From positions 29,795,828 to 29,859,827 of the forward strand of contig NC_079876.1 of assembly GCF_029227915.1 (NCBI RefSeq): 64,000 nt of DNA. The letters run 5' to 3'. Source of the DNA: Hydractinia symbiolongicarpus. Taxonomy: Eukaryota > Cnidaria > Hydrozoa > Anthoathecata > Hydractiniidae. The notes under the pieces are model-generated. The model did no database searches and was not told the origin of the DNA. It saw only the letters and a list, made by a program, of their open reading frames with translations. The position numbers were made by a program, and so were the translations under genes. Below, one piece after another: positions 1 to 57,930 of this stretch (the stretch's first letter is position 1; each line of letters begins with the position of its first letter).

Positions 1-388
1 ATTTCTTTAATAATTTGCCGCTTTGATAATTCCTTGAATTGACTGGAACTGCAAAAAGGGATGGTAATCTTTGATATTTTGAACTTGAAATTGGTGATAT
101 GGAAGGAATAATTGCGCATCGTAAAATAACGGCTGGTAGAAATATTGCGGCTATGCTATTTCGTTATGTTCGATATTTCACCACAACAAGTCATGGTAAC
201 ACATTTCCACGTTTAAAATTCTCCAAGCATTCTTCAATCATCTTATCAATAACGTTCACCTAGCTAATAGGCTTATTTAGCAAGAAGACGCCAACGCTGT
301 TTGAAACGCCGTTGTGATAAGATGCCGTTCCCTCCAAATGTTTAGCGAAAGTTTGATTTAGCAATTGCGCGGAAAAAAGTAAACAAAT

Positions 389-1468
389 ATGGCAGCTGTT
401 CAAGGGCTTCGAGAGGTTCGTGAAGCTATTCTTCTTGCGTATGCTTTTGATGCGATCGACGACGAGGAATATTTCTTGTTAACAGAGTTAAATATGTCAA
501 GAGAACTTTATCCTTACTGGAATTTTCCTACATTTGACATGAACTTATGGGATGATCAACGCTGTCTAACTGAACTGAGATTTCGCCAAACAGATTTGAG
601 TGATTTGAAAAATGCCCTCCAATTACCAGATAAAATTGTGACTAGTCAAAGAACAGTTTGCTCAGGAATGGAGGGGTTATGCATCTTTCTCAAGCGCTTA
701 GCATTCCCTTGCCGATATACAGATATGGTTGCTAGTTTTGGACGTAATCCTACCGAGTTATGCTTGATTTACAACACTGTATTAGACTTTGTTTATGAAA
801 ATCACAATCACAGATTAAACTCATGGAACCAAGCTTTCTTACAACCGGCCAAACTGCAACAATATTCAGACACGATATATCAGAAAGGTGCACCGCTGCT
901 GAATTGTTTCGGTTTTGTTGATGGAACTGTCATAAGAATAGCCAGGCCCAAACAAAACCAAAGAGTGTGTTACAATGGTCATAAACGTGTGCACGCTCTG
1001 AAGTTTCAGAGTATTGCTTTGCCAAATGGACTTATTGCTAACTTCAAAGGGCCATTTGAAGGAAGACGACACGACAGCACCATGCTGCATCAATCAGGGA
1101 CATTAGCAGAACTACAAGCCCATGCATGGTATAACGGTCAAGCACTTTGCATTTATGGGGACCCTGCTTATCCTCTGTCTGTGCATATACAAACACCACA
1201 TCGAGCACCAAACATTACACCCGCTCAAAAAAATTACAACAAAGCCATGAGTGCAGTACGAGTGTCGGTAGAATGGTTGTTTGGCGATGTAAAAAATTTC
1301 TTTAAATTCGTGGATTACAAGAAGGATATGACACTTGGCCGAAGTCCAGTTGGCAAGACAGTGCTGGTTTGTGGTATATTGCATAATGCACGTACATGTT
1401 TGTATGGAAACATGACCTCCAGTTATTTCGAAGAGGAGCCACCGACTCTACAAGAATATTTTCAATGA
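389..1468 (+). CDS. Harbinger transposase, DDE_Tnp_4 nuclease
   Basis: A 359-residue open frame without stops, the size expected for an intron-poor PIF/Harbinger transposase. It would cut and rejoin DNA at the element ends in the nucleus, with the Myb-like partner supplying DNA binding. The catalytic triad can be read as D178 in FVDGT, D258 in YGDPAY and E295 in VRVSVEWLFG. The RRHDSTML segment (residues 226-233) is also typical of the family. The first in-frame ATG is preceded by AACAAAT, a reasonable initiation context. The frame ends about 330 bp before the stop of the convergent Myb gene, with AT-rich DNA and an AATAAA between. All motifs are present, so the element may be young or active. 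The family assignment is strong; activity is inference. Confidence 0.9.
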   Translation: MAAVQGLREVREAILLAYAFDAIDDEEYFLLTELNMSRELYPYWNFPTFDMNLWDDQRCLTELRFRQTDLSDLKNALQLPDKIVTSQRTVCSGMEGLCIFLKRLAFPCRYTDMVASFGRNPTELCLIYNTVLDFVYENHNHRLNSWNQAFLQPAKLQQYSDTIYQKGAPLLNCFGFVDGTVIRIARPKQNQRVCYNGHKRVHALKFQSIALPNGLIANFKGPFEGRRHDSTMLHQSGTLAELQAHAWYNGQALCIYGDPAYPLSVHIQTPHRAPNITPAQKNYNKAMSAVRVSVEWLFGDVKNFFKFVDYKKDMTLGRSPVGKTVLVCGILHNARTCLYGNMTSSYFEEEPPTLQEYFQ

Positions 1469-1800
1469 ATATACACAAGACTATGAACAAAATATATAAA
1501 TATATTTAGCAAAAAATATCAGTTTCTAATATATACAGTATGTAGGTGTCTTTATAAAAACACAATAAATATATTTTAAAAAATATCAAAATTCTGAGAA
1601 CAAAACTTATTTCTCTTTGAAATGTGATTCCTCACACTGTTTTTTTTTAAACCATACTTTCAAGTCTCATAAGACAAAAGGTTTTTTGTATAATAACATA
1701 TACAATCTTGTAGAAAAAGTAGCTTTTGATGATTTGACTATCACAACAAAAAATAACAACAAAACATTTCAACGTTTAAAGTTCCAAGTGTGGCAAAAGT

Positions 1801-2547
1801 TCAATTTTTATCATTATTTTTATTTTGAGAAAACATAGTCATGAACATTTGGAATTGTTGTTGTTGTTGGTTTATGAGTTGTAAAATATTTCTCTGTTGA
1901 TCTGCATGTTGTACTGCTTGTTGTTGGATGCTCGACTGAAAAGCTGTGAGCATATTTGTTGTCTGATCCATTTGGGATTTTTGTAGGTTAATTTTTTCAC
2001 ATCGCTTAGCTTCCTTCTGCTCCTGTAATTCTTTATCATGAGCCATCTTTTGCCGCAAAAAATCTATAGTTTCTGATGTTGAGCGTCTATTTCTTTTCGA
2101 GCTACTTGGTTCTTCATTTTCGTCACCATTTCTTTTCTTAGTTTCGCTCATTCTTTCCATGGCTGTCTGTCTAACCTCTAGTGCTTTCTGCTGCTCTAAA
2201 TTTGCAGAGTTTTTCTTCTCTTCTACAGCAAGTTCGTGTTTCAGATCACATTCGTCACTCAGTTCTATTAAATCTTCCAATAAGGTATCAAACTCTGTTG
2301 GTGGGTCTCCACCAAGTCCCGAACCTCTTATTTCTTTATTATTTTTAGCCTTGTACTTTCGCATAAGATTAGTGAAGCGATCTCTTACCGATCTGGGATT
2401 CACTGCATATCCTTCCATTAAATTCAAAATTGCTGCAATGTTTTGCCAAACTTGGCCACGTTCCCTACTACCACACTTATGGGAGAAAATTCCACTGGCT
2501 GTCATTTGTCGCATCATCTCCATGTCTTTTTCTTCAGTCCATTGCAT
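1801..2547 (-). CDS. Harbinger Myb/SANT-like DNA-binding protein
   Basis: A 248-residue open frame convergent to the transposase. The N-terminus starts MQWTEEKDMEMMRQM and continues with VWQNIAAILN and VRDRFTNLMRKYK, a trihelix/Myb-like helix pattern with conserved tryptophans at residues 3 and about 34. The middle is charged, with a KKRN/SKRNRR basic stretch that could act as a nuclear signal. The C-terminus is glutamine-rich coiled coil (residues about 190-235). In this superfamily the Myb-like protein is known to help nuclear import of the transposase and to bind sub-terminal repeats; that role is transferred by family, not shown here. The start is the first ATG directly before the SANT-like domain. 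Confidence 0.8.
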   Translation of the reverse strand: MQWTEEKDMEMMRQMTASGIFSHKCGSRERGQVWQNIAAILNLMEGYAVNPRSVRDRFTNLMRKYKAKNNKEIRGSGLGGDPPTEFDTLLEDLIELSDECDLKHELAVEEKKNSANLEQQKALEVRQTAMERMSETKKRNGDENEEPSSSKRNRRSTSETIDFLRQKMAHDKELQEQKEAKRCEKINLQKSQMDQTTNMLTAFQSSIQQQAVQHADQQRNILQLINQQQQQFQMFMTMFSQNKNNDKN

Positions 2548-2945
2548 AACAGATCTAAAAACGAGAGTTTATATATTTTTTATTATTCTTTGAAGAAATT
2601 TGGTTGTTTTTTAGGTGCTACCAGAGCCTAGCCAGTAGAGGTGCACTTTGTTGTTTTCATTTTGAGTTTGTATTTACTTATGTTAATATCATATTTTATA
2701 GTAAAAATCATTGTATGTAAAGTTCTCAAGATACATGCATCGAAAATCAGTTATATTTTCATGATTTACCTACCTTTTCTTACTTGTTGCTTCCATTTTC
2801 CAACCACGTTCTGTTCACGACGTCAAATGTTGTAAAATCAAGTTCCGAACGAAACAAGACGCGGTGAAAATGCTCGGGCCTAGTCCTTTCTCGGGTTTTC
2901 CTCTGAGAAATCCCGCGTTCGCGTCTTCTTGCTAAATAAGCCTAA

Positions 2946-3028
2946 TGACAGAGGTGGGGTTCGAACCCACTCCGGCAATTGTTCATTGAAACTTAAGTCC
3001 AACGCCTTAATCACTCGGCCACCATGGT
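2946..3028 (-). tRNA. tRNA-Leu(UAA)-like, copy 1, degenerate
   Basis: The acceptor stem is weakened at several pairs (tgacagag against ccatggt) and D-loop G19 reads A. The Harbinger element abuts its 3' end. Confidence 0.55.
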
Positions 3029-3378
3029 TGTAAGTTCAGGTTACCAGGGTTACTTGAACTTGGAAAAAGTACTGGCAATGAACTTTATTACTCTAAATCG
3101 TGTAGGAGCATTAAGATCTGTCGATCTTCTTATTTCTTTAATAATTTGCCTTTTTGATACTTCAACAAACTGACTGGAACTGCAAAAAAGTATGGTAATA
3201 TTTGGGATTTTGAGTTTGAAATTTTGAGATATGGAAGGAATAATTGCGCATTGTGACATAACGGCTGGTTCAAATATTGCAGCTATTCTATTTCTCCAGG
3301 TTCATTAAAAACCCATTTCCACGTTTAAGTTCTCCAAGCATCCTTCAATCATCTTATCAGCCAGATTAACCTAACTAA

Positions 3379-3461
3379 TACCAGAGGTGGGGTTCGAACC
3401 TACGCGGACAATTTTCCATTGGAACTTAAGTCCAACGCCTTAACCACTCGGCAACCCTGGT
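3379..3461 (-). tRNA. tRNA-Leu(UAA)-like, copy 2
   Basis: Class A body. One T-stem mismatch (cctac), U at position 9, and a weakened variable arm. Confidence 0.65.
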
Positions 3462-3831
3462 TGAAATTTCATGTTAATAACGTTACTTGAAATTGGAAAA
3501 AGTACGGGAAATGAACCTTAGTATTCTAAAACGCCTAAGAGCACTACCATTTGACGAAGTTCAGATTTTTTAATAATTTGCCGTTTTGATAACTCAACAA
3601 AATGAATGGAACTGCAAAATGGGATTGTAATATTTAGGATTTTGAGTTTAAAAATTTGAGATATGGAAGGCATTATTGCGCATCGTGAAGTAACGGCTGG
3701 TAGAATTATTGGGGCTATTCTAGTTTGCCATGTGGGATAATTCAACACAACGTGTCATGTTAACGGATTTCCACGGTTAAAACAGTCCAAATGTCCTTCA
3801 ATCATCTTATCACACAGGTTAACCCCGCTAT

Positions 3832-3914
3832 TGCCAGAGGTAGGGTTCAAACCCACGTGGACAATCGTCCATTGGAACTTAAGTCCAACGCATTAACCAC
3901 TCGGCCACCCTGGT
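3832..3914 (-). tRNA. tRNA-Leu(UAA)-like, copy 3
   Basis: A1-C72 mismatch, a D-stem mismatch (cgcatt), and T-loop C56 changed to U. Confidence 0.55.
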
Positions 3915-4285
3915 TGAAATTTCAGGTTAATAAGGTTACTTAAAGTTGGAAAAAGTACTGGCAATGAACCTTAGTATTCTAAATCGCGCAAGAGCATTAA
4001 CATCTCTCGATTCTCTTACTTCTTTAATAATTTGCCGTTTTGATAATTCAAAAAATTGACTGGAACTGCAAAAAAGTATCGTAATATTTCGGATTTTGTG
4101 TTTGACATTTGGTGACATGGAATGAATAATTGCGCATCGTGAAATAACGGCTGCTAGAATAATTGTAGCTATTCTATTTCTCCAAGTTTGATACTTCGCC
4201 ACAACGTTTCATGGTACCACATTTCAATGTTTAAAGTTCTTCAAGCATCCTTCAATCATCTTATCACACAGGTTAACCTAGCTAT

Positions 4286-4368
4286 TACGAGATGTGGGGT
4301 TCGAACCCACGCGGACAATTGACCAATGGAACTTAAGTCTATCGCCTTAACCACTCAGCCACCCTGGT
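4286..4368 (-). tRNA. tRNA-Leu(UAA)-like, copy 4
   Basis: Outer anticodon-stem pair is A27-U43 but with an inner A-C mismatch (tctat). Two acceptor mismatches (tacgagat). Confidence 0.5.
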
Positions 4369-4738
4369 TGAAATTTCAGGTTAATAAGGTTACTTGAATT
4401 TGGAAAAAGTACGGGAAATGATCCTTAGTATTCTAAATCGCCCAACAGCATTACTATTTGACGACCTTCATATTTTTTAATAATTTGCCACTTTGATAAC
4501 TCAACAAAATGAATTGAGCTGCAAAAAGGGATGGTAATATTTAGGATTTTGAGTTTGAAATTTTGAGATAATTAAGGCATAATTGCGCATCGTGCAATAA
4601 CGGCTTGTAGAATTATTGTTGCTATTCCATTTCGCCATGTGCGATACGTCACCACAACGTATCATGATAACACATTTCCACGGTTAAAACTCTATAAGCA
4701 TGCCTCAATCTTCTTATCACACAGATTGACCTAGCTAA

Positions 4739-4821
4739 TACCAGAGGTGAGGTTCGAACCCACGCGGACAATCGTACATTGGAACTTAAGTCCAACGCCT
4801 TAACCGCTCGGCCACCCTGTG
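4739..4821 (-). tRNA. tRNA-Leu(UAA)-like, copy 5
   Basis: Core is class A, but the 5' end reads CACAGGG, so the first two acceptor pairs are lost. Confidence 0.55.
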
Positions 4822-5202
4822 TGAAAATTCAGGTTAATAAGGTTACTTCAACTTAGAAAAAGTACTGGAAATGCACTTTAGTATCCTAAGATGTGCAAGA
4901 GCATTAACATCTGCCGACGTCCTTATTTCATTAAAAAATTTCAGTTTTGATAATTCATTAAATTCACTGAAACTGCGAAGAGGATGGTAATCCTTGAGAT
5001 TTTGAACTTGATATTTGGTGACATGGAAAGAATAAATGCGCATCGTGAAACAACGGCTGGTATAACTATTGCAGCTATTCTATTTCTCTTGGTTCGATAC
5101 TTCGCCACAACGTGTCATGGCAAACACATTTCCACGTCTAAATTCTCCAAGCATCCTTCAATCATCTTATCACCCAGATTAACCTAGCTAATACCAGAGG
5201 TG

Positions 5203-5213
5203 GGGTTCGAACC
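5203..5213 (-). promoter_or_regulatory. Pol III B box of an intact copy
   Basis: Minus-strand GGTTCGAACCC in the T arm matches the eukaryotic B-box consensus GGTTCGANTCC closely. It serves both as T loop and as TFIIIC site. Shown for one intact copy; most full-length copies keep it. Confidence 0.8.
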
Positions 5214-5250
5214 CACGCGGACAATTGTCCATTGGAACTTAAGTCCAACG

Positions 5251-5267
5251 CCTTAACCACTCGGCCA
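5251..5267 (-). promoter_or_regulatory. Pol III A box of an intact copy
   Basis: Minus-strand TGGCCGAGTGGTTAAGG fits the A-box consensus TRGYNNARNNGG. In class B copies the GG doublet reads GC, which weakens both the promoter match and the D-loop/T-loop contact. Confidence 0.75.
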
Positions 5268-5429
5268 CCCTGGTTAAAATTTTAGGTTAATAAGGTTACT
5301 TGAACTTAGAAAAAGTACTGGCAATGAACCTTAATATTCTAAATCGTGTAAGAGCATTGCCATCTGTCGACCTTCTTATCTCTTTAATGATTTTCCGCTT
5401 TGATAATTCAACAAATTGATTGGAACTGC

Positions 5430-5434
5430 AAAAA
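5430..5434 (-). terminator. Distal T-run, candidate Pol III terminator
   Basis: Five T residues on the transcribed strand lie about 211 nt beyond the 3' end of the tRNA at 5646-5728. Equivalent T4-T6 runs recur at about 200-215 nt in most units, for example 15,743-15,747 and 15,299-15,304. Function as a terminator is inferred. Confidence 0.4.
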
Positions 5435-5645
5435 GGGATGGTAATAATTGGGACTTTGAATTTGAAATTTTGAGATATGGAATGAATAATTGCGCATCGT
5501 GAAATAACGGCTGGTAGAATTATTGTAACTATTCTCTTTCTCCAAGTTCGATACTTTGCCGAAACGTGTCATGACAAACCCATTTCCACGTTTAAATTCT
5601 CCAAGCATCCTTCAATCATCTTATCACCCAGATTAAACAAGCTAA

Positions 5646-5728
5646 TACTAGAGGTGGGGTTCGAACCCACGCGGACAATTGTCCATTGGAACTTAAGTCC
5701 AACGCCTTAACCACTCGGCCACCCTGGT
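5646..5728 (-). tRNA. tRNA-Leu(UAA), copy 7, near-intact
   Basis: Identical to the intact form except one acceptor change (tactagag), giving a C3-A70 mismatch. Confidence 0.85.
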
Positions 5729-6097
5729 TGAAATTTCAGGTTAGTAAGGTTACTTGAACTTGGAAAAAGTACTGGCATTGAACCATAATATTCTAAATCC
5801 TGTAAGAGCATTGCCATCTGTCGACCTTTCATTTCTTTAATAATTTGCCGCTTTGATAATTCCTTGAATTGACTGGAACTGCAAAAAGGGATGGTAATCT
5901 TTGATATTTTGAACTTGAAATTGGTGATATGGAAGGAATAATTGCGCCTCGTAAAATGACGGCTGATAGAAATATTGCGGCTATGCTATTTCGTTATGTT
6001 CGATATTTCACCACAACAAGTCATGGTAACACATTTCCACGTTTAAAATTCTCCAAGCATTCTTCAATCATCTTATCAATAACGTTCATCTAGCTAA

Positions 6098-6180
6098 TGA
6101 CAGAGGTGGGGTTCGAACCCACTCCGGCAATCGTTCATTGAAACTTAAGTCCAACGCCTTAATCACTCGGCCACCATGGT
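6098..6180 (-). tRNA. tRNA-Leu(UAA)-like, copy 8, degenerate
   Basis: Sister of copy 1 with one base difference. It preserves the uninterrupted sequence at the Harbinger target. Confidence 0.55.
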
Positions 6181-6530
6181 AGTAAGTTCAGGTTACCAGG
6201 GTTACTTGAACTTGGAAAAAGTACTGGCAATGAACTTTATTACTCTAAATCGTGTAGGAGCATTAAGATCTGTCGATCTTCTTATTTCTTTAATAATTTG
6301 CCTTTTTGATACTTCAACAAACTGACTGGAACTGCAAAAAAGTATGGTAATATTTGGGATTTTGAGTTTGAAATTTTGAGATATGGAAGGAATAATTGCG
6401 CATTGTGACATAACGGCTGGTTCAAATATTGCAGCTATTCTATTTCACCAGGTTCATTAAAAACCCATTTCCACGTTTAAGTTCTCCAAGCATCCTTCAA
6501 TCATCTTATCAGCCAGATTAACCTAACTAA

Positions 6531-6613
6531 TACCAGAGGTGGGGTTCGAACCTACGCGGACAATTTTCCATTGGAACTTAAGTCCAACGCCTTAACCACT
6601 CGGCAACCCTGGT
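6531..6613 (-). tRNA. tRNA-Leu(UAA)-like, copy 9
   Basis: Same sequence as copy 2. Confidence 0.65.
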
Positions 6614-6983
6614 TGAAATTTCATGTTAATAACGTTACTTGAAATTGGAAAAAGTACGGGAAATGAACCTTAGTATTCTAAATCGCCTAAGAGCACTACT
6701 ATTTGACGAAGTTCAGATTTTTTAATAATTTGCCGTTTTGATAACTCAACAAAATGAATGGAACTGCAAAATGGGATTGTAATATTTAGGATTTTGAGTT
6801 TAAAAATTTGAGATATGGAAGGCATTGTTGCGCATCGTGAAGTAACGGCTGGTAGAATTATTGGGGCTGTTCTAGTTTGCCATGTGGGATAATTCAACAC
6901 AACGTGTCATGTTAACGGATTTCCACGGTTAAAACAGTCCAAATGTCCTTCAATCATCTTATCACACAGGTTAACCCCGCTAT

Positions 6984-7066
6984 TGCCAGAGGTAGGGTTC
7001 GAACCCACTTGGACAATCGTCCATTGGAACTTAAGTCCAACGCATTAACCACTCGGCCACCCTGGT
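6984..7066 (-). tRNA. tRNA-Leu(UAA)-like, copy 10
   Basis: Sister of copy 3, but C56 is kept; A1-C72 and the D-stem mismatch remain. Confidence 0.6.
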
Positions 7067-7437
7067 TGAAATTTCAGGTTAATAAGGTTACTTAAAGTTG
7101 GAAAAAGTACTGGCAATGAACCTTAGTATTCTAAATCGCGCAAGAGCATTAACATCTCTCGATTCTCTTACTTCTTTAATAATTTGCCGTTTTGATAATT
7201 CAAAAAATTGAGTGGACCTGCAAAAAAGTATCGTAATATTTCGGATTTTGTGTTTGACATTTGGTGACATGGAATGAATAATTGCGCATCGTGAAATAAC
7301 GGCTGCTAGAATAATTGTAGCTATTCTATTTCTCCAAGTTTGATACTTCGCCACAACGTTTCATGGTAACACATTTCAATGTTTAAAGTTCTTCAAGCAT
7401 CCTTCAATCATCTTATCACACAGGTTAACCTAGCCAT

Positions 7438-7520
7438 TACGAGATGTGGGGTTCGAACCCACGCGGACAATTGACCAATGGAACTTAAGTCTATCGCCTT
7501 AACCACTCGGCCACCCTGGT
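7438..7520 (-). tRNA. tRNA-Leu(UAA)-like, copy 11
   Basis: Sister of copy 4 with the D stem restored (cggcc). Confidence 0.55.
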
Positions 7521-7890
7521 TGAAATTTCAGGTTAATAAGGTTACTTGAATTTGGAAAAAGTACGGGAAATGATCCTTAGTATTCTAAATCGCCCAACAG
7601 CATTACTATTTGACGACCTTCATATTTTTCAATAATTTGCCACTTTGATAACTCAACAAAATGAATGGAGCTGCAAAAAGGGATGGTAATATTTGGGATT
7701 TTGAGTTTGAAATTTTGAGATAATTAAGGCATAATTGCGCATCGTGCAATAACGGCTTGTAGAATTATTGTTGCTATTCCATTTCGCCATGTGCGATACG
7801 TCACCACAACGTATCATGATAACACATTTCCACGGTTAAAACTCTATAAGCATACCTCAATCTTCTTATCACACAGATTGACCTAGCTAA

Positions 7891-7973
7891 TACCAGAGGT
7901 GAGGTTCGAACCCACGCGGACAATCGTACATTGGAACTTAAGTCCAACGCCTTAACCACTCGGCCACCCTGTG
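7891..7973 (-). tRNA. tRNA-Leu(UAA)-like, copy 12
   Basis: Sister of copy 5; 5' end reads CACAGGG. Confidence 0.55.
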
Positions 7974-8344
7974 TGAAAATTCAGGTTAATAAGGTTACTT
8001 GAACTTAGAAAAAGTACTGGCAATGAACCTTAATATTCTAAATCGTGTAAGAGCATTGCCATCTGTCGACCTTCTTATCTCTTTAATGACTTTCCGCTTT
8101 GATAATTCAACAAATTGATTGGAACTGCAAAAAGGGATGGTAATAATTGGGACTTTGAATTTGATATTTTGAGATATGGAATGAATAATTGCGCATCGTG
8201 AAGTAACGGCTGGTAGAATTATTGGGGCTCTTCTAGTTTGCCATGTTGGATAATTCAACACAACGTGTCATGTTAACGGATTTCCACGGTTAAAACAGTC
8301 CAAATGTCCTTCAATCATCTTATCACACAGGTTAACCCCGCTAT

Positions 8345-8427
8345 TGCCAGAGGTAGGGTTCGAACCCACTTGGACAATCGTTTATTGGAACTTAAGTTCA
8401 ACGCATTAACCACTCGGCCACCCTGGT
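8345..8427 (-). tRNA. tRNA-Leu(UAA)-like, copy 13
   Basis: Related to copy 10, with changes in the variable arm (cgttta) and anticodon stem (gttcaa, a G-U pair). Confidence 0.5.
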
Positions 8428-8798
8428 TGAAATTTCAGGTTAATAAGGTTACTTAAAGTTGGAAAAAGTACTGGCAATGAACTTTAGTATTCTAAATCGC
8501 GCAAGAGCATTAACATCTCTCGATTCTCTTACTTCTTTAATAATTTGCCGTTTTGATAATTCAAAAAATTGACTGGAACTGCAAAAAAGTAACGTAATAT
8601 TTCGGATTTTGTGTTTGACATTTGGTGACATGGAATGAATAATTGCGCATCGTGAAATAACGGCTGCTAGAATAATTGTAGCTATTCTATTTCACCAAGT
8701 TTGATACTTCGCCACAACGTTTCATGGTAACACATTTCAATGTTTAAAGTTATTCAAGCATCCTTCAATCATCTTATCACACAGGTTAACCTAGCTAT

Positions 8799-8881
8799 TA
8801 CGAGATGTGGGGTTCGAACCCACGCGGACAATTGACCAATGGAACTTAAGTCTATCGCCTTAACCACTCGGCCACCCTGGG
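8799..8881 (-). tRNA. tRNA-Leu(UAA)-like, copy 14
   Basis: Related to copies 4 and 11; the first base is C, breaking the terminal acceptor pair. Confidence 0.5.
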
Positions 8882-9251
8882 TGAAATTTCAGGTTAATAA
8901 GGTTACTTGAATTTGGAAAAAGTACGGGAAATGATCCTTAGTATTCTAAATCGCACAATAGCATTACTATTTGACGACCTTCATATTTTTCAATAATTTG
9001 CCACTTTGATAACTCAACAAAATGAATGGAGCTGCAAAAAGGGATGGTAATATTTGGGATTTTGAGTTTGAAATTTTGAGATAATTAAGGCATAATTGCG
9101 CATCGTGCAATAACGGCTTGTAGAATTATTGTTGCTATTCCATTTCGCCATGTGCGATACGTCACCACAACGTATCATGATAACACATTTCCACGGTTAA
9201 AACTCTATAAGCATGCCTCAATCTTCTTATCACACAGATTGACCTAGCTAA

Positions 9252-9334
9252 TACCAGAGGTGAGGTTCGAACCCACGCGGACAATCGTACATTGGAACTT
9301 AAGTCCAACGCCTTAACCACTCGGCCACCCTGTG
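9252..9334 (-). tRNA. tRNA-Leu(UAA)-like, copy 15
   Basis: Same as copy 12; acceptor 5' end CACAGGG. Confidence 0.55.
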
Positions 9335-9704
9335 TGAAAATTCAGGTTAATAAGGTTACTTCAACTTAGAAAAAGTACTGGAAATGCACTTTAGTATCCT
9401 AAGATGTGCAAGAGCATTAACATCTGCCGACGTCCTTATTTCCTTAAAAAATTTCAGTTTTGATAGTTCATTAAATTGACTGAAACTGCGAAGAGGATGG
9501 TAATCCTTGAGATTTTGAACTTGAAATTTGGTGACATTGAAAGAATAATTGCGCATCGTGAAACAACGGCTGGTATAACTATTGCAGCTATTCTGTTTCT
9601 CTTGGTTCGATACTTCGCCACAACGTGTCATGGCAAACACATTTCCACGTCTAAATTCTCCAAGCATCCTTCAATCATCTTATCACCCAGATTAACCTAG
9701 CTAA

Positions 9705-9787
9705 TACCAGAGGTGGGGTTTGAACCCACGCGGACAATTGTCCATTGGAACTTAAGTCCAACGCCTTAACCACTCGGCCACCCTGGT
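9705..9787 (-). tRNA. tRNA-Leu(UAA), copy 16, near-intact
   Basis: Intact form except T-loop G57 to A, a purine exchange that keeps the fold. Confidence 0.88.
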
Positions 9788-47776: not shown

Positions 47777-47859
47777 TACCAGAGGAGGGGTTCGAACCCA
47801 CGCGGACAATCGTCCATTGGAACTTAAGTCCAACGCCTTAACAACTCGACCACCCTGGT
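47777..47859 (-). tRNA. tRNA-Leu(UAA)-like, copy 93
   Basis: Class A anticodon and acceptor; D arm altered (acaactcgacc). Confidence 0.6.
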
Positions 47860-48229
47860 TGAAAGTTCAGGTTAATAAGGTTACTTGAATTTGGAAAAAG
47901 TACGGGAAATGAACCTTAGTACTCTAAATCGCCCAAGAGCATTGCTATTTGACGACCTTCAGATGTTTCAATAATTTGCCATTTTGATAACTCAACAAAA
48001 TGAATTGAGCTGCAAAAAGGGATGGTAATATTAGGGATTTTGAGTATGAAATTTTGAGATATGGAAGGCGTCATTGCGCATCGTAAAATATCGGTTTGTA
48101 GAATTATTGATGCTGTTCCATTTCGCCATATGCGATACTTCACCACAACGTATCATAGTAACACATTTCCATGGTTAAAACTCTCCAAGCATCCTTCAGT
48201 CATCTTATCACCCAGATTAACCTAGCTAA

Positions 48230-48311
48230 TAACAGAGATGGGGTTCGATCCTCCCCGGCAATCGTCCATTGGAACTTAAGTCCAACGCCTTAACCATTCG
48301 ACCACCCTGGT
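48230..48311 (-). tRNA. tRNA-Leu(UAA)-like, copy 94, 82 nt
   Basis: T arm rewritten as gatggggttcgatcctcccc and one base shorter; anticodon arm intact. Confidence 0.5.
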
Positions 48312-48673
48312 TGAAAATTCAGGTTAATAAGGTTACTTGAATTTGGAAAAAGTACGGGAAATGAACCTTAACATTCTAAATCGCCCAAGAGCATTACTAT
48401 TTGACGTCCTTCAGATTTTACAATAATTCGTCGCTTTGATAATTCATTGAATTGACTGGAACTGCAAAACGAAATGGTAATCTTTGAGATTTTGAACTTG
48501 AAATTTAGTGACATGGAAGGAATAATTGGGCATCGTGAAATAACGGCTGGTAGAATTATTGTAGCTATTCTATTTCTCCAAGGTCGATACTTCGCCACAA
48601 CGTGTCATGGTAACACATTTCCATGTTTAAAATTCTTCAAGCATCCTTCAATCATCTTATCACACAGGTTAAC

Positions 48674-48756
48674 CACCAGAGGTGGGGTTCGAACGCACGC
48701 GGACAATTGTCCATTGGAACTTAAGTCCATCGCCTTAAGCACTCGGCCACCCTGGT
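48674..48756 (-). tRNA. tRNA-Leu(UAA)-like, copy 95, class B variant
   Basis: Same gene sequence as copy 87. Confidence 0.6.
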
Positions 48757-49126
48757 TGAAATTTCAGGTTAATAAGGTTACTTGAATTTGGAAAAAGTAC
48801 GGAAAATGAACCTTAGTATTCTAAATTGCCCAAGAGCATTACCATTTGACCACCTTCAGATCTTTCAATAATTTGCCATTTTGATAACTCAACAAAATGA
48901 ATTGAGCTGCGAAAAGGGATGGTAATATTCAGGATTTTGAGTTTGAAATTTTGAGATATGGAAGGCATAATTACGCATCGTGAAATAACGGCTTGTAGAT
49001 TTATTGGTGCTATTCCATTTCGCCATGCGCGATACTTCACCACAACGTATCATGATAACACATTTCCACGGTTAAAAGTCTCCAAGCATCCCTAAATCTT
49101 TTTATCACACAGGTTGACCTAGCTAA

Positions 49127-49209
49127 TACCAGAGGTGGGGTTCGTACCCACGCGGACAATCGTCCATTGCAACTTAAGTCCAACGCCTTAACCACTCGTT
49201 CACCCAGTG
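49127..49209 (-). tRNA. tRNA-Leu(UAA)-like, copy 96, degenerate
   Basis: Like copy 88 with a further A-box change (ctcgttca). Confidence 0.4.
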
Positions 49210-49565
49210 TGAAAATTCAGGTTAATAAGGTTACTTCAACTTGGAAAAAGTACTGGAAATGAACTTTAGTATTCTAAATTGTGTAGGAACATTGCCGACC
49301 TTTCTATTTCTTTAATAATTTGCTGCTTTGATAATATATTAATTTGACTGGAACTGCAAAAACGGATGGTAATCCTTGAGATTTTGAACTTGAAATTTGG
49401 TGACATGGAAGGAATAATTGGGCATCGTGAAATAACGGCTGGTAGAATTATTGTAGCTATTCTATTTCTCCAAGGTCGATACTTCGCCACAACGTGTCAT
49501 GGTAACACATTTCCATGTTTAAAATTCTTCAAGCATCCTTCAATCATCTTATCACACAGGTTAAC

Positions 49566-49648
49566 CACCAGAGGTGGGGTTCGAACGCACGCGGACAATT
49601 GTCCATTGGAACTTAAGTCCATCGCCTTAAGCACTCGGCCACCCTGGT
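49566..49648 (-). tRNA. tRNA-Leu(UAA)-like, copy 97, class B variant
   Basis: Duplicate of copy 95, offset 892 bp. Confidence 0.6.
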
Positions 49649-50018
49649 TGAAATTTCAGGTTAATAAGGTTACTTGAATTTGGAAAAAGTACGGAAAATG
49701 AACCTTAGTATTCTAAATTGCCCAAGAGCATTACCATTTGACCACCTTCAGATCTTTCAATAATTTGCCATTTTGATAACTCAACAAAATGAATTGAGCT
49801 GCGAAAAGGGATGGTAATATTCAGGATTTTGAGTTTGAAATTTTGAGATATGGAAGGCATAATTACGCATCGTGAAATAACGGCTTGTAGAATTATTGGT
49901 GCTATTCCATTTCGCCATGCGCGATACTTCACCACAACGTATCATGATAACACATTTCCACGGTTAAAAGTCTCCAAGCATCCCTAAATCTTTTTATCAC
50001 ACAGGTTGACATAGCTAA

Positions 50019-50101
50019 TACCAGAGGTGGGGTTCGTACCCACGCGGACAATCGTCCATTGCAACTTAAGTCCAACGCCTTAACCACTCGTTCACCCAGT
50101 G
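50019..50101 (-). tRNA. tRNA-Leu(UAA)-like, copy 98, degenerate
   Basis: Duplicate of copy 96, offset 892 bp. Confidence 0.4.
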
Positions 50102-50465
50102 TGAAAATTCAGGTTAATAAGGTTACTTCAACTTGGAAAAAGTACTGGAAATGAACTTTAGTATTCTAAATTGTGTAGGAACATTGCCGACCTTTCTATT
50201 TCTTTAATAATTTGCTGCTTTGATAATATATTAATTTGACTGGAACTGCAAAAACGGATGGTAATCCTTGAGATTTTGAACTTGAAATTTGGTGACATGG
50301 AAGGAATAATTGCGCATCGTGAAACAACGTCTGGTAGAATTATTGTAGCTATTCTATTTCTCCAAGTTTGATACTTCGCCACAACGTGTCATGGTAACAC
50401 ATTTCCATGTTAAAAACTCTTCAAGCATCCTTCAATCATCTTATCACACAGGTTAACCTAGCTAA

Positions 50466-50548
50466 TACCAGAGGTGGGGTTCGATCCCACGCGGACAATT
50501 GTCTAATGGAACTTAAGTCCATCGCCTTAACCACTCGGCCACCCTGGT
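50466..50548 (-). tRNA. tRNA-Leu(UAA), copy 99, class C
   Basis: Fully paired AUGGA/UCCAU anticodon stem, A73 and G18G19; only U54 to A departs from a good fold. Confidence 0.75.
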
Positions 50549-50918
50549 TGAAATTTCAGGTTAATAAGGTTACTTGAATTTGGAAAAAGTACGGGAAATG
50601 AACCTTAACATTCTAAATCGCCCAAGAGCATTGCTATTTGACGACCTTCAGATGTTTCAATAATTTGCCATTTTGATAACTCAACAAAATGAATTGAGCT
50701 GCAAAAAGGGATGGTAATATTAGGGATTTTGAGTATGAAATTTTGAGATATGGAAGGCGTCATTGCGCATCGTAAAATATCGGTTTGTAGAATTATTGAT
50801 GCTGTTCCATTTCGCCATATGCGATACTTCACCACAACGTATCATGGTAACACATTTCCATGGTTAAAACTCTCCAAGCATCCTTCAGTCATCTTATCAC
50901 CCAGAATAACCTAGCTAA

Positions 50919-51000
50919 TAACAGAGATGGGGTTCGATCCTCCCCGGCTATCGTCCATTGGAACTTAAGTCCAACGCCTTAACCATTCGACCACCCTGGT
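50919..51000 (-). tRNA. tRNA-Leu(UAA)-like, copy 100, 82 nt
   Basis: Duplicate of copy 94 with one variable-arm change. Confidence 0.5.
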
Positions 51001-51370
51001 TGAAAATTCAGGTTAATAAGTTTACTTGAATTTGGAAAAAGTACGGGAAATGAACCTTAACATTCTAAATCGCCCAAGAGCATTACTATTTGACGTCCTT
51101 CAGATTTTACAATAATTCGTCGCTTTGATAATTCATTGAATTGACTGGAACTGCAAAACGAAATGGTAATCTTTGAGATTTTGAACTTGAAATTTAGTGA
51201 CATGGAAGGAATAATTGGGCATCGTGAAATAACGCCTGGTAGAATTATTGTAGCTATTCTATTTCTCCAAGTTTGATACTTCGCCACAACGTGTCATGGT
51301 AACACATTTCCATGTTAAAAACTCTTCAAGCATCCTTCAATCATCTTATCACACAGGTTAACCTAGCTAA

Positions 51371-51453
51371 TACCAGAGGAGGGGTTCGAACCCACGCGGA
51401 CAATCGTCCATTGGAACTTAAGTCCAACGCCTTAACCACTCGACCACCCTGGT
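51371..51453 (-). tRNA. tRNA-Leu(UAA), copy 101, near-intact
   Basis: Class A; D-stem wobble (cgacc) and one T-stem change (gagggg). Confidence 0.78.
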
Positions 51454-51822
51454 TGAAAGTTCAGGTTAATAAGGTTACTTGAATTTGGAAAAAGTATGGG
51501 AAATGAACCTTAGTATTCTTATCGCCCAAGAGCATTACCATTTGACGAACTTCAGATTTTTAAATAATTTGCCATTTTGATAGTTCAACAAATTGACTAT
51601 AACTGCAAAAAAGTATGGTAATTTTTGGGATTTTGACTTTGAAATTTTGAGATATGGAAGGCATTATTGCGCATCGTGAAATAACGGCTGGTGGAATTAT
51701 TGTTGCTATTCTATTTCTCCAAGGTCAATACTTCGCCACAAAGTGTCATGGCAAACACACTTCCACGTTGAAATTCTCCAGGCATCCTTCAATCATCTTA
51801 TCACACAGGTTAACCTAAGTAA

Positions 51823-51905
51823 TTCCAGAGGTGGGGATCGGACCCACGGAGACAACCGTCCATTGGAACTTAAGTCCAACGCCTTAACCACTCAGCCGCT
51901 CTGGT
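51823..51905 (-). tRNA. tRNA-Leu(UAA)-like, copy 102
   Basis: T loop ttcgg-type change (gatcggac), and a 5' strand ctctggt that alters acceptor pairing. Confidence 0.5.
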
Positions 51906-52265
51906 TGAAGTTTCAGGTTAATAAGGTTACTTGAACTTGGAAAAAGTACTGGCAATGAACTTTAGTGTTATAAATCGCGAAAGAGCATTACTATTTGACG
52001 ACCTTCAGATTTTTCAATAATTTGCCGTTTTGATTACTCAACAAACTGCAAAATGGCATGGTAATATTTGGGATTTTGAGTTTGAAAGTTTGAGATAGGG
52101 AAGGCATTATTGCGCATCGTGAAGTAACGGCTAGTAGAATTATTGGGGCTATTCTCTTTCGCCATGTGGAATAATTAAACACAACGTGCCATGTTAACGC
52201 ATTTCCACGGTTAAAACTCTCCAAGCATCCTTCAATCTTCTTATCACACAGGTTAACCTAGCTAA

Positions 52266-52348
52266 TACCATAATAGGGGTTCGAACCCACCCAGACAATC
52301 GACCAATGGATCTTAAGTCCAACGCATTAACCACTCGTCCACCGTGGT
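52266..52348 (-). tRNA. tRNA-Leu(UAA)-like, copy 103, degenerate
   Basis: 3' acceptor strand accataa and D arm cgcatt...cgtcc are changed; B box intact. Confidence 0.45.
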
Positions 52349-52718
52349 TGAAATTTTGGATTAATAAAGTTACGTGAATTTGGAAAAAGTACGGGAAATT
52401 AACCTTAGTATTCTAAATCGAACAAGAGCATTTCCATTTCACGACTTTCAGATTTTTCAATAATTTGTCATTTTGATAGCTAAACAAAATGAATGGAGAT
52501 GCAAAAAGGGATGGTAATGTTTGGGATTTTGTGTATGAAATTTTGAGATATGTAAGGGATAATTGCGCATCGTGAAATAACGGCTCGTGGAATTATTGGT
52601 GCTTTTCCATTTCACCATGTGCGATACTTCACCACAACGTCTCATGTTAACACATTTCCACGGTTAAAACTCTCCAAGCATCCCTCAATCTTCTTATCAC
52701 ACAGAATAGCCTAGCTAA

Positions 52719-52801
52719 TACCAGAGGTGGGGTTCGAACCCACGCGGACAATCGTCCATTGGAACTTAAGTCCAACGCCTTAACCACTCAGCCACCCTGG
52801 T
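52719..52801 (-). tRNA. tRNA-Leu(UAA), copy 104, near-intact
   Basis: Intact form except a C12 to U change giving a G-U wobble in the D stem. Confidence 0.9.
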
Positions 52802-53173
52802 TGAAGTTTCAGGTTTCCAAGGTTACTTGATATTGGAAAAAGTACTGGCAATGAACCTTAACATTCTAAGTCGTGTAAGAGCATTGACATCTGTCGTCCT
52901 TCTTATCTCTTTAATAATTTGCCGCTTTGATAATTCAACAAATTGATTGGAACTGTAAAAAGGGATTGTAATATTTGGGAGTTTGATTTTAAAATATTGA
53001 GATATGAAAGGAATAATTGCGCATCGTGAAATAACGGCTGGTAGAATTATTGTAGCTATTCTATTTCTCCAAGGTCGATACTTCGCCACAACGTGTCATG
53101 GCAAACACACTTCCACGTCTAAAAATCTTCAAGCATCCTTCAATCATCTTATCACAAAGGTTAACCTAGCTAA

Positions 53174-53256
53174 TACCAGAGGAGGGGTTCGAACCCACGC
53201 GGACAATCGTCCATTGGAACTTAAGTCCAACGCCTTTACCACTCGACCGCCCTGGT
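53174..53256 (-). tRNA. tRNA-Leu(UAA)-like, copy 105
   Basis: Related to copies 93 and 101; D loop gcctttacc. Confidence 0.6.
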
Positions 53257-53626
53257 GGAAAGTTCAGGTTAATAAGGTTACTTGAACTTGGAAAAAGTAC
53301 GGGAAATGAACCTTAGTACTCTAAATCGCCCAAGAGCATTACCATTTGACGAACTTCAGATTTTTAAATAATTTGCCATTTTGTTAGCTCAACAAAATGA
53401 ATGGAGCTGCAAAAAGGGATGGTAATATTAGGGATTTTGAGTATGAGATTTTGAGATATGAAAGGCGTCATTGCGCATCGTAAAATATCGGTTTGTAGAA
53501 TTATTAATGCTGTTCCATTTCGCCATATGCGATACTTCACCACAACGTATCATGGTAACACATTTCCATGGTTAAAACTCTCCAAGCATCCTTCAGTCAT
53601 CTTATCACCCAGATTAACCTAGCTAA

Positions 53627-53708
53627 TAACAGAGATGGGGTTCGATCCTCCCCGGCAATCGTCCATTGGAACTTAAGTCCAACGCCTTAACCATTCGACC
53701 ACCCTGGT
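53627..53708 (-). tRNA. tRNA-Leu(UAA)-like, copy 106, 82 nt
   Basis: Same gene sequence as copy 94. Confidence 0.5.
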
Positions 53709-54068
53709 TGAAAATTCAGGTTAATAAGGTTACTTGAATTTGAAAAAAGTATGGGAAATGAACTTTAGTGTTAAAAATCGCGAAAGAGCATTACTATTTG
53801 ACGACCTTCAGATTTTTCAATAATTTGCCGTTTTGATTACTCAACAAACTGCAAAATGGCATGGTAGTATTTGGGATTTTGAGTTTGAAAGTTTGAGATA
53901 GGGAAGGCATTATTGCGCATCGTGAAGTAACGGCTGGTAGAATTATTGGGGCTATTCTCTTTCGCCATGTGGAATAATTAAACACAACGTGCCATGTTAA
54001 CGCATTTCCACGGTTAAAACTCTTCAAGCATCCTTCAATCTTCTTATCACACAGGTTAACCTAGCTAA

Positions 54069-54151
54069 TACCATAATAGGGGTTCGAACCCACCCAGACA
54101 ATCGACCAATGGAACTTAATTCCAACGCATTAACCACTCGTCCACCGTGGT
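54069..54151 (-). tRNA. tRNA-Leu(UAA)-like, copy 107, degenerate
   Basis: Relative of copy 103, with an anticodon-loop neighbour change (cttaattcc). Confidence 0.4.
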
Positions 54152-54521
54152 TGAAGTTTTAGATTAATAAAGTTACGTGAATTTGGAAAAAGTACGGGAA
54201 ATTAACCTTAGTATTCTAAATCGAAAAAGAGCATTTCCATTTCACGACTTTCAAATTTTTCAATAATTTGTCATTTTGATAGCTAAACAAAATGAATGGA
54301 GATGCAAAAAGGAATGGTAATGTTTGGGATTTTGTGTATGAAATTTTGAGATATGTAAGGGATAATTGCGCATCGTGAAGTAACATCTGATAGAATTATT
54401 GGTGCTATTCCACTTCGCCATGTGCGATACTTTACCACAACGTATGATGTTAACACATTTCCAACGTCAAAACTCTCCAAGCATCCCTCAATCTTCTTAT
54501 CACACAGGTTAACCTAGCTAA

Positions 54522-54604
54522 TACCATAAGAGGGGTTCGAACCCACGCAGACAATCGACCAATGGAACTTAAGTCCAACGCCTTAACCACTCGTCCACCC
54601 TGGT
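54522..54604 (-). tRNA. tRNA-Leu(UAA)-like, copy 108
   Basis: Acceptor strand accataa leaves mismatches; anticodon stem U27-U43. Confidence 0.5.
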
Positions 54605-54974
54605 TGAAATTTTAGGTTAATAAAGTTACGTGTATTTGGAAAAAGTACGGGAAATTAACCTTGGTATTCTAAATCGAACAAGAGCATTTCCATTTCACGA
54701 CTTTCAGATTTTTCAATAATTTGCCATTTTGATAGCTAAACAAAATGAATGGAGATGCAAAAAGGGATGGTAAATTTTGGGATTTTGTGTATGACATTTT
54801 GAGATATGTAAAGGATAATTGTGCATCGTGAATTAACGGCTTGTAGGTTTATTGGTGCTATTCCATTTCACCATGTGCGATACTTCACCACAACGTATGA
54901 TGTTAACACATTTCCACCGTCAAAACTCTCTAAGCATCCCTCAATCTTCTTATCACCCAGATTAACCTAGCTAA

Positions 54975-54990
54975 TACCAGAGGTGGGGTT
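54975..54990 (-). pseudogene. Truncated tRNA-Leu, copy 109
   Basis: Only the acceptor 3' strand and part of the T arm remain; it runs straight into an inverted copy of spacer DNA. Confidence 0.75.
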
Positions 54991-55062
54991 CTTACACGAT
55001 TTAGAATATTAAGGCTTGGAAAAAGTACTGCCAATGAACCTTAATATTCTAAATCGTGTAAG
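54991..55062. repeat. Foldback: 24-bp perfect inverted arms
   Basis: Left arm 54,991-55,014 starts cttacacgatttagaata. It is the exact complement of 55,039-55,062, with a 24-nt spacer. The right arm is normal spacer sequence; the left arm is the misplaced inverted copy. Confidence 0.85.
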
Positions 55063-55355
55063 AGCATTAATATCTGTCGATCTTCTTATTTCTTTAACAA
55101 TTTGCTGTTTTGATAATTCAACAAATTGCCTGGAACGGCAAAAAAGTATGGTAATATTTGGGATTTTGAGTTTGAAATTTTGAGATATGGAAGGAATAAT
55201 TGCGCATTGTGAAGTAACATCTGGTAGAATTATTGGTGCTATTCCACTTCGCCATGTGCGACACTTCACCACAACGTATGATGTTAACACATTTCCACCG
55301 TCAAAACTCTCTAAGCATCCCTCAATCTTCTTATCACACAGGTTAACCTAGTTAA

Positions 55356-55438
55356 TACCATAAGAGGGGTTCGAACCCACGCAGACAATCGACCAATGAA
55401 ACTTAAGTCCAACGCCTTAACCACTCGTCCATCCTGGT
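55356..55438 (-). tRNA. tRNA-Leu(UAA)-like, copy 110
   Basis: Relative of copy 108 with ccatcctggt at the 5' end. Confidence 0.5.
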
Positions 55439-55808
55439 TGATATTTTAGGTTAATAAGGTTACGTGAATTTAGAAAAAGTACGGGAAATGAACCTTAGTA
55501 TTCTAAATCGAACAAGAGCATTTCCATTTGACGACTTTCAGATTTTTCAATAATTTGCCATTTTGATAGCTAAACAAAATGAATGGAACTGCAAAATGGG
55601 ATGGTAATATTTGGGATTTTGAGTTTGAAATTTTGAGATATGTAAGGGATAATTACGCATCGTGAAATAACGGCTTGTAGAATTATCGGGGATATTCTAT
55701 TCCGCCATGTGGAATAATTCAAAACAACGTGTCATGTTAACGCATTTCCACGTTTAAAATTCTCAAAGCATCCTTCAATCATCTTATCACCCAGATTAAC
55801 CTAGCTAA

Positions 55809-55889
55809 TAACAGAGATGGGGTTCGAAGCTCAAGGCAATCGTCCATTGGTACTTAAGTCCAACGCCTTAACCACTCGATCACCCTGGT
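55809..55889 (-). tRNA. tRNA-Leu(UAA)-like, copy 111, 81 nt
   Basis: T arm rewritten (ttcgaagctcaagg) and two bases shorter; the T stem does not pair. Confidence 0.4.
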
Positions 55890-56258
55890 TGAAAATTCAG
55901 GTTAATAAGGTTACTTGAATTTGGAAAATGTACGGGAAATGAACCTTAGTATTCTAATTGCCCAAGAGCATTACCATTTGACGAACTTCAGATTTTTAAA
56001 TAATTTGCCATTTTGATAATTCAACAAATTGACTAGAACTGCAAAAAAGTATGGTAATTTTTGGGATTTTGTGTTTGAAATTTTGAGATATGGAAGGAAT
56101 AATTGTGGATTGAGAAGTAACGGCTGGTACAACTATTGCAGCCATTCTATTTCTCCAGGTTTGATACTTCGCCACAACGTGTCATGGCAAACACATTTCC
56201 ACGCTTAAATTCTCCAAGCATCCTTCAATCATCTTATCACCCAGATTAACCTAGCTAA

Positions 56259-56341
56259 TACCAGAGGTGGGGTTCGAACCCACGCGGACAATTGTCCATT
56301 GGAACTTAAGTCCAACCCCTTAACCACTCGGCCTCCCTGGT
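56259..56341 (-). tRNA. tRNA-Leu(UAA), copy 112, near-intact
   Basis: Class A with one D-stem end mismatch (aacccc) and one change at position 8/9 (gcctccc). Confidence 0.78.
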
Positions 56342-56712
56342 TGAAATTTCAGATTAATAAGGTTACTTGAACTTGGAAAAACTACTGCCAATGAACCTTA
56401 ATATTCTAAATCGTGTAAGAGCATTAATATCTGTCGATATTCTTATTTCTTTAACAATTTGCCGTTTTGATAATTCAACAAATTGCCTGGAACTGCAAAA
56501 AAGTATGGTAATATTTGAGATTTTGAGTTTGAAATTTTGAGATATGGAAGGAATAATTGCGCATTGTGAAATAACATCTGGTAGAACTATTGGTGCTATT
56601 CCACTTCGCCATGTGCGATACTTCACCACAACGTATGATGTTAACACATTTCCACCGTCAAAACTCTCTAAGCATCCCTAAATCTTCTTATCACACAGTT
56701 TAACCTAGTTAA

Positions 56713-56780
56713 TACCATAAGAGGGGTTCGAACCCACGCAGACAATCGACCAATGAAACTTAAGTCCAAAGCCTTAACCA
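56713..56780 (-). pseudogene. Truncated tRNA-Leu, copy 113
   Basis: The 5' acceptor strand and most of the D arm are lost: taacca joins directly to spacer gattaaaactctcc, and the next gene follows only 125 bp on. Confidence 0.75.
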
Positions 56781-56837
56781 GATTAAAACTCTCCAAGCAA
56801 CCTTCAATCATCTTATCACACAGGTTAACCCAGCTAA

Positions 56838-56920
56838 TACCAGAGGTGGGGTTCCAATCCACGCGGACAATTGTCCATTGGAACTTAAGTCCAACGCCTT
56901 AACCACTCGTCGACCCTGGT
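56838..56920 (-). tRNA. tRNA-Leu(UAA)-like, copy 114
   Basis: T loop and B box altered (ggttccaatcc); rest near class A. Confidence 0.55.
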
Positions 56921-57290
56921 TGAAGTTTCAGGTTAATAAGGTTACTTGAACTTGGAAAAAGTACTGGCAATGAACCTTAGTATTCTAAATCGCGCAAGAG
57001 CATTACCATTTGACGACCTTCAGATTTGTCAATAATTTGCCGCTTTGATAGCTCAACAAAATGAATGGAGCTGCAAAAAGGGATGGTAATATTTGGGATT
57101 TTTTGTATGAAATTTTGAGATATGTAAGGGATAATTGCGCATCGTAAAATAACGGCTTGTAGAATTATTGGTGCTACACCATTTTACCATATGCGATACT
57201 TCACCACAACGTATCATGGTAACACATTTCCATGGTTAAAACTCTCCAAGCATCCTTCAATCATCTTATCAAGAACGTTAACCTAGCTAA

Positions 57291-57373
57291 TAACAGAGGT
57301 GGGGTTCGAACCCACTCGGACAATCGTCCATTGGTACGTAAGTCCAACGCCTTAACAAATCGGCCACCCTGGT
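57291..57373 (-). tRNA. tRNA-Leu-derived copy 115, anticodon UAC
   Basis: The loop CUUACGU gives anticodon UAC (valine codon GUA) in a leucine-type body with a long variable arm. The acceptor has one mismatch (taacagag) and the D loop reads aacaaatcgg. Confidence 0.6.
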
Positions 57374-57384
57374 TGAAAATTCAG

Positions 57385-57560
57385 TCTCTATTATAATAGC
57401 CGTATTCCGTCTGTCTGTCTCTGCGCGTACCCCCCGCTGAGTTAGAAAATGATGTTACGGAAACACGAATGTCAAATGCGATATATTTTTATTCACTTTG
57501 TTGCGACGGGTAAATATAAAGGACGGGCAAACCCGTAGATTTTTCCACGGGCAACGACTA
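57385..57560 (+). mobile_element. Short Helitron-like insertion (tentative)
   Basis: Interrupts spacer sequence of an array unit (ttcag ... tttaataagg) with little or no target duplication. It begins TCTCTATTATAATAG, contains CTGTCTGTCTC, and ends with an imperfect hairpin CCCGTAGATTTTTCCACGGG followed by caacgacta. A 5' TC, a 3' hairpin and a CTA-type end are Helitron hallmarks. No gene inside. Confidence 0.5.
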
Positions 57561-57918
57561 TTTAATAAGGTTACTTGAATTTGGAAAAGTACGGGAAATG
57601 AACATTAGTATTCTAAATCGCCCAAGAGCATTACCATTTGACGAACTTCAGATTTTTCAATAATTTGACATTTTATTAGTTCAACAAAATGAATGGAGCT
57701 GCAAAAAGGAATGGTAATAATTGGGATTTTGAGTATGAAATTTTGAGATATGGAAGGCATCATTGCGCATCGTGAAATATCGGTTTGTAGAATTATTGAT
57801 GCTATTCCATTTCGCCATAGGAGATGATTCACCACAACGTATCATGGTAACACATTTCTATAGTTTTAACTCTCCGAGCATCCCTCAATCTTCTTATCGC
57901 ACAAGTTAGCCTAGCTAA

Positions 57919-57930
57919 TACCAGAGGTGA
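57919..57930 (-). pseudogene. Truncated tRNA-Leu, copy 116, array edge
   Basis: Only taccagaggtg of the acceptor 3' strand remains before unrelated sequence begins. Confidence 0.7.

Follow-up and report, generated by a model that had tools for sequence, protein, structure and literature searches.

The closest described relatives of the locus reported here come from the same genus. Tandem arrays of tRNAs and of other non-coding RNAs were reported for Hydractinia symbiolongicarpus and Hydractinia echinata, the tRNA arrays in Hydractinia covering all 20 amino acids, and the accessible part of that report calls the biological significance of the known large tRNA arrays unclear (PMC11067881). We analysed a window of 64,000 nucleotides from H. 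symbiolongicarpus (C2:29,795,828-29,859,827; genome of 480,894,487 bases in 76 contigs), which forms the right-hand end of an array of about 590 kb with a tRNA-Leu(UAA)-like segment in each unit. The C2 array shares with the published Hydractinia arrays the roughly even spacing of tandem tRNA copies, the similar spacers and copy numbers in the tens to hundreds (114 copies within the window and 381 within the approximately 190 kb that were read). It differs from them, as far as the accessible part of PMC11067881 goes, by its about 1,200 units (extrapolated to the whole array), which are ~14-15% apart, and by a centre that is better kept than the decayed ends. As Hydractinia tandem tRNA arrays are already published as a kind, the term “unusual” used in the initial annotation was dropped. 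Among the papers listed in the literature searches, no account of this individual array was found; unless the supplementary tables of PMC11067881 already list it, which they may, the new points are its extent, its restriction to one isoacceptor and the way in which its centre differs from its ends.

Tandem tRNA-bearing units are also a feature of Entamoeba. For E. histolytica, the sections of the source at hand describe 25 array types that hold up to five tRNA genes, separated by short tandem repeats, with mostly uniform copies and almost all tRNA genes located in arrays (PMC2652664). The C2 array has one tRNA per unit, diverse copies (~14-15% mean divergence) and dispersed genes besides, in contrast to these arrays, where single-gene units may nevertheless occur. 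In another animal, a tandem repeat with tRNA genes is known from human 1q23.3, for which the available text gives 7.3-kb GC-rich units, 9-43 copies and CTCF binding (PMC4041453). The units of the C2 array are much smaller (0.45 kb), lie in DNA with a GC content of ~38-40% and number ~1,200 by extrapolation. Finally, block structure, a nearest relative several units away and decayed edges are characteristic of higher-order repeats of the alpha-satellite type. Blocks and decayed edges were found in the C2 array as well, but each of its units carries a tRNA segment, and in the centre this segment is better kept than the spacer.

Using the 83-nt tRNA of one unit as BLAST query, 114 tRNA-Leu(UAA)-like segments were found in the window between 2,949 and 57,373. 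They share the minus strand, and each head-to-tail unit of ~453 bp contains one. ARAGORN predicted 103 tRNAs (101 Leu(UAA), 1 Val(UAC) and 1 undetermined), and 94 matches to Rfam RF00005 reached the cutoff of 29 bits, the best with 60.4 and the weakest with 30.9 bits. Tandem Repeats Finder (TRF) gave a period of 454 bp with 89 copies and 84% matches for positions 15,072-54,991. The initial annotation had described a single-strand array of about 116 Leu(UAA) units of ~450 bp, filling nearly 58 kb up to a right border at about 57,930. Strand, unit length and border were confirmed, the number of segments was corrected to 114, and the array was found along the window, interrupted by two mobile elements (Table 1). 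Its characterisation as a very long satellite of a single isoacceptor with structured sub-classes also held; 5 of the 114 units were left out of the class analysis.

The continuation to the left of the window, already noted in the initial annotation, amounts to ~532 kb as judged from sampled stretches, so that the array extends over ~C2:29,263,430-29,853,757 at this sampling density. Array sequence was present in all 17 stretches fetched between or across the borders. The loci L009-L012, left of the window, were covered to 99.0-99.8% by array units, and three of the 17 stretches were only partly array (L016 with 64%, L024 with 55%, and L045, which lies across the left border). Outside the two borders, the stretches sampled (L013, L014, L027-L040) were free of array sequence. 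With at most two mismatches, a 29-nt pattern matched the genome 1,004 times, 998 of these on the minus strand. At L018:3078-3160, one unit runs in the reverse direction (plus strand) and is flanked by array on either side.

The order of the units was analysed by pairwise distances of 182 units from a contiguous 104 kb. Adjacent units were on average 14.4% apart, close to the mean of 14.8% over all unit pairs, while the nearest relative of a unit was 2.3% away and was found at a lag of 2-8 units in 105 of the 182 cases. Series of as many as 7 consecutive units recurred at fixed lags, and near-identical units reappeared at multi-unit lags, as in a satellite with higher-order repeats. At both ends of the array the units were degenerate, and 251 distinct tRNA sequences were counted among the 381 units. 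The block structure points to unequal crossing-over in blocks, of which it would be the expected signature, and since unequal exchange explains the blocks, selfish spread is not needed for them. The length of the array is that given by the assembly. A difference of 14.4% between neighbouring units shows that the assembler did not multiply a single sequence, and two transposons with clean ends inside the array together with the array sequence in 17 of 17 stretches make an assembly artefact, or a collapsed or expanded repeat, hardly credible.

The preservation of the tRNA differed along the array. A functional tRNA-Leu(UAA) has a complete cloverleaf, a UAA anticodon, A73 and the T-loop and D-loop bases. 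In a strict structural test (24 stem pairs, UAA anticodon and the tested invariant bases), in which the 43 of 381 segments that are not exactly 83 nt long were scored as not perfect, 45 of the 381 units passed. These perfect copies comprised 21 of 68 units in the central zone, termed core (C2:29.495-29.66 Mb, 165 kb, of which 30 kb were read), 9 of 114 in the window and 15 of 199 elsewhere. The initial description, with one tRNA-Leu gene in each window unit, was corrected accordingly: by this test, complete tRNAs make up 9 of the 114 segments of the window. Divergence from the consensus was determined in an alignment of all units, without 60 of the 381 that had no neighbour or a length outside 415-475. 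In bins of 50 kb the spacer was nearly flat (0.096-0.121), while the tRNA diverged by 0.046-0.071 towards the sides and by 0.024-0.026 in the middle bins. The pairwise tRNA/spacer ratio was lowest in the two samples from the centre (0.37 for 20 units and 0.29 for 21), rose to 0.43 in the 16 units next to them, and reached 0.65-0.71 on the left and 0.58-0.92 on the right of the array. For comparison of core and rest, near-identical units were collapsed to clusters. With cluster representatives, tRNA/spacer divergence was ~0.27 in the centre versus ~0.63 elsewhere (unit bootstrap 0.20-0.36 for the core, 0.57-0.69 for the rest), and 2.30 substitutions per tRNA in the core (29 clusters) compared to 4.7-6.0 elsewhere (Mann-Whitney p = 1.4e-9). 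Within the core, the acceptor, A box, anticodon arm and B box were well kept (0.008-0.027). Because the spacer is nearly as diverged in the centre as elsewhere, recency alone does not account for the preservation of the central tRNAs.

Because of this positional profile, a preserved core replaced a purely neutral satellite as leading view. We assign a probability of roughly 0.5 to a tRNA array whose core is preserved while a halo around it decays; the window would then belong to the halo on the right-hand side. Such an array could go back to a single founder, a functional tRNA-Leu(UAA) gene together with ~370 bp of flanking sequence, and could have reached about 590 kb via unequal crossing-over of multi-unit blocks. 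The central units may still act as tRNA genes kept by selection, probably transcribed by RNA polymerase III (Pol III), with a T-run ~50 nt downstream as candidate terminator. Units towards both ends, nearly the whole window included, would be relaxed, losing tRNA structure and gathering transposons, and old units would have been displaced outward. A more far-reaching version, a locus of an animal comparable to the ribosomal DNA (rDNA), with several hundred selection-maintained, transcribed Leu(UAA) units in the core, an unusual distal terminator and a halo of several hundred decaying units, is possible, with odds that we set below even.

The initial annotation had proposed a count of UAA leucine genes outside the array, and at least five dispersed Leu(UAA) genes were found on C9, C11 and C12 (exact matches, among the matches listed). 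Four were complete with 60.3-61.4 bits, the fifth had 54.8 bits and one mispair, and in each case four or more consecutive T followed at a distance of 9-21 nt. Their flanks were unlike the array unit, except for one weak match of 37 nt. The array units are in tandem order; dispersed retroposed copies with target duplications and a 3' tail would be expected of tRNA-derived short interspersed nuclear elements (SINEs). The best array copies were 96.4% identical over 83 nt to the dispersed gene in L043, and two of the three differences form a paired change from A7-U66 to G7-C66. With these dispersed genes and their close T-runs, and with 105 of the 114 window copies failing the strict test, a high demand for UUA decoding, suggested earlier as a function of the array, did not hold up as the whole story; a dosage role for the central part is possible.

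A second array type was found on C3, with units of 1.3 kb that carry tRNAs for Asp, Lys, Ala, Leu(CAA), Tyr, Met and Ala. Multi-tRNA arrays were seen on C3 at 3.35, 4.47 and 8.38-8.96 Mb. ARAGORN assigned Asn(GTT) to the C3 Tyr gene of L008 and of L049, and Leu(UAA) to one Leu(CAA) gene of L056. The tRNA-Lys of the C3 array lacks a close T-run, which was found at +184/185 in L001, L004 and L007 (of 20 C3 loci).

A number of observations weigh against a core kept by selection for tRNA function. The boundaries of the core were set post hoc, once the divergence profile was known, and array units and clusters are mutually dependent, also in the statistics of core versus rest. The core spacer is itself slightly less diverged (0.099 versus 0.104-0.109, p = 0.02), and the outer T-stem of the core, with 0.112, is more diverged than the outer T-stem in the parts of the array flanking the core (0.072) and about equal to the spacer. 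Stem changes kept pairing no more often than expected by chance, neither on terminal branches (76 of 263, 82.0 expected) nor on internal ones (44 of 169, 45.5 expected), and the ratio of kept to broken pairs was 13/30 in the core and 119/321 outside, without a gain in the core. In the C3 array, used as positive control, tRNA and spacer were alike (34 of 583 versus 38 of 764 variable sites), in a comparison of 10 distinct units of low divergence from loci picked by search. Of the 373 units with sufficient downstream sequence, none carried four T in the first 12 nt after the tRNA, and none of the 45 perfect copies had four T within 49 nt, compared to 9-21 nt in the dispersed genes. The first T-run of the perfect copies was located at +50 in 30 of 45; for the other 15 it was at +178 or beyond, or none was found. 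In favour of a preserved core, on the other hand, a first T-run at +26 to +60 was present in 59 of 68 units in the core, 69 of 114 in the window and 106 of 199 others. Because the tRNA-Lys of the C3 array also lacks a close T-run, the T-run test is not decisive for the array tRNAs.

Four or more T within 25 nt occurred in 24 of the 373 units, and all 24 had a damaged tRNA, 23 with at least two mispairs and 1 of abnormal length. A T-run at +15 to +17 was confined to units with damaged tRNA among the 381, for example in C2:29,738,565-29,744,995.

The main rival, and a serious one, is a tRNA-derived satellite without tRNA function. Here one Leu(UAA) gene would have been amplified in tandem along with its flanking DNA, every copy would be a pseudogene, and the better state of the centre would have another cause, for instance local homogenisation of the tRNA part. 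It is favoured by the stem changes, which do not prefer pairing, by the unconserved outer T-stem of the core, by the absence of a close terminator from all perfect copies, by the diversity of the tRNA sequences (251 in 381 units) and by the existence of the dispersed genes. The centre speaks against it, as its spacer is 0.099 from the consensus and differs by 0.11-0.12 pairwise, so that recency is insufficient for the kept tRNA part. Overall, we regard a satellite of pseudogenes throughout as rather unlikely. Pairing preservation was discarded as a sign of tRNA function, as it was negative inside and outside the core.

Promoter regions were compared outside the core. The initial annotation had offered a selfish satellite that spreads by carrying a Pol III promoter, and A and B box regions are indeed recognisable in the units, with the B box alone less diverged (0.050) than the whole tRNA (0.068). 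However, the A box alone reached 0.074, the divergence of both boxes together came close to that of the remaining tRNA (ratio 0.90, bootstrap 0.76-1.07), and the flanks of the dispersed genes do not resemble the unit beyond the weak match mentioned above. The Pol III promoter as selfish agent was therefore rejected, the boxes jointly not being specially kept, and we consider such spread very improbable. In the branch analysis, changes in the tRNA were 1.16 times the base-class expectation on terminal branches and 0.76 times on internal ones. Transcription-linked mutation was considered as a cause of the terminal excess. Within the tRNA, CpG sites changed most. The ratio of internal to terminal changes was 0.41 in the T-loop and 0.30 in the anticodon loop, compared to 0.93 in the spacer. 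This would fit a role in chromatin (boundary, nuclear anchoring or centromere-linked), in which the binding of Pol III factors rather than the tRNA product would matter. A block-structured and very long satellite might serve this purpose, and the accessible part of the report on the human 1q23.3 tRNA repeat links that repeat to a boundary function (PMC4041453). As the A and B boxes together were kept no better than the remaining tRNA outside the core, we judge a chromatin role improbable, yet less so than selfish spread.

A centre-preserved array of a single isoacceptor next to dispersed genes for the same codon makes the alternative of “dosage or decoration” testable by variant-specific tRNA sequencing. 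If an rDNA-like core with halo is true, birth and death of tRNA genes would be legible along one stretch of chromosome. The features of the window are summarized in Table 1.

Table 1. Features of the 64,000-nt window (positions counted from its first letter).
Position	Strand	Feature	Basis
1..269	-	array sequence running in from the left (partial unit without tRNA segment)	sequence
270..2942		PIF/Harbinger DNA transposon within a unit	ORFs, terminal inverted repeats, target duplication
2943..11312	-	array block, 19 tRNA-Leu(UAA)-like segments, 5' ends 3028 to 10927	BLAST
11313..15075		mobile element with zf-AD and helicase ORFs, inverted ends	ORF domains, sequence
15076..57930	-	array block, 95 tRNA-Leu(UAA)-like segments, units mostly ~439-455 bp	BLAST, TRF, unit distances
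15959..16041	-	one of the eight top-scoring tRNA-Leu(UAA) copies of the window (60.4 bits)	Rfam
43000..57930	-	most decayed part of the window; pairwise tRNA/spacer ratio 0.92, 29 units	divergence

The first of the two inserted elements carries an open reading frame (ORF) for a DDE_Tnp_4 transposase (389-1468, plus strand) and a Myb/SANT-like ORF (1801-2547, minus strand). Its terminal inverted repeats start with GGCTTATTTAGCAAGAAG, and a target duplication of 3 bp was found, ambiguous between AAT and TAA, in keeping with the target-site habit of the PIF/Harbinger superfamily. Among the best 120 of 2,022 matches of the transposase, those with an organism name were all cnidarian (Hydra, Paramuricea, Porites). 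The second element has the inverted ends CCTCGTYCCCAGGG, a zf-AD ORF (11947-12603, plus strand) and DEAD / Helicase_C ORFs at 14480-14869 and 13158-13874, both on the minus strand. Near the right border, ~180 bp of unrelated sequence (~57,385-57,562) split the last unit just upstream of its tRNA segment. Outside the array, at ~60,660-62,420 of the window, lie an RVT_1-like frame that stays below its cutoff (20.1 versus 29.6 bits) and a GIY-YIG frame that narrowly exceeds its own (23.0 versus 22.6 bits), a combination for which we take these remnants to be Penelope-like. On reading, tRNA-like stretches at ~58,475-58,545 and ~63,250-63,320, likewise outside the array, gave the impression of SINE heads.

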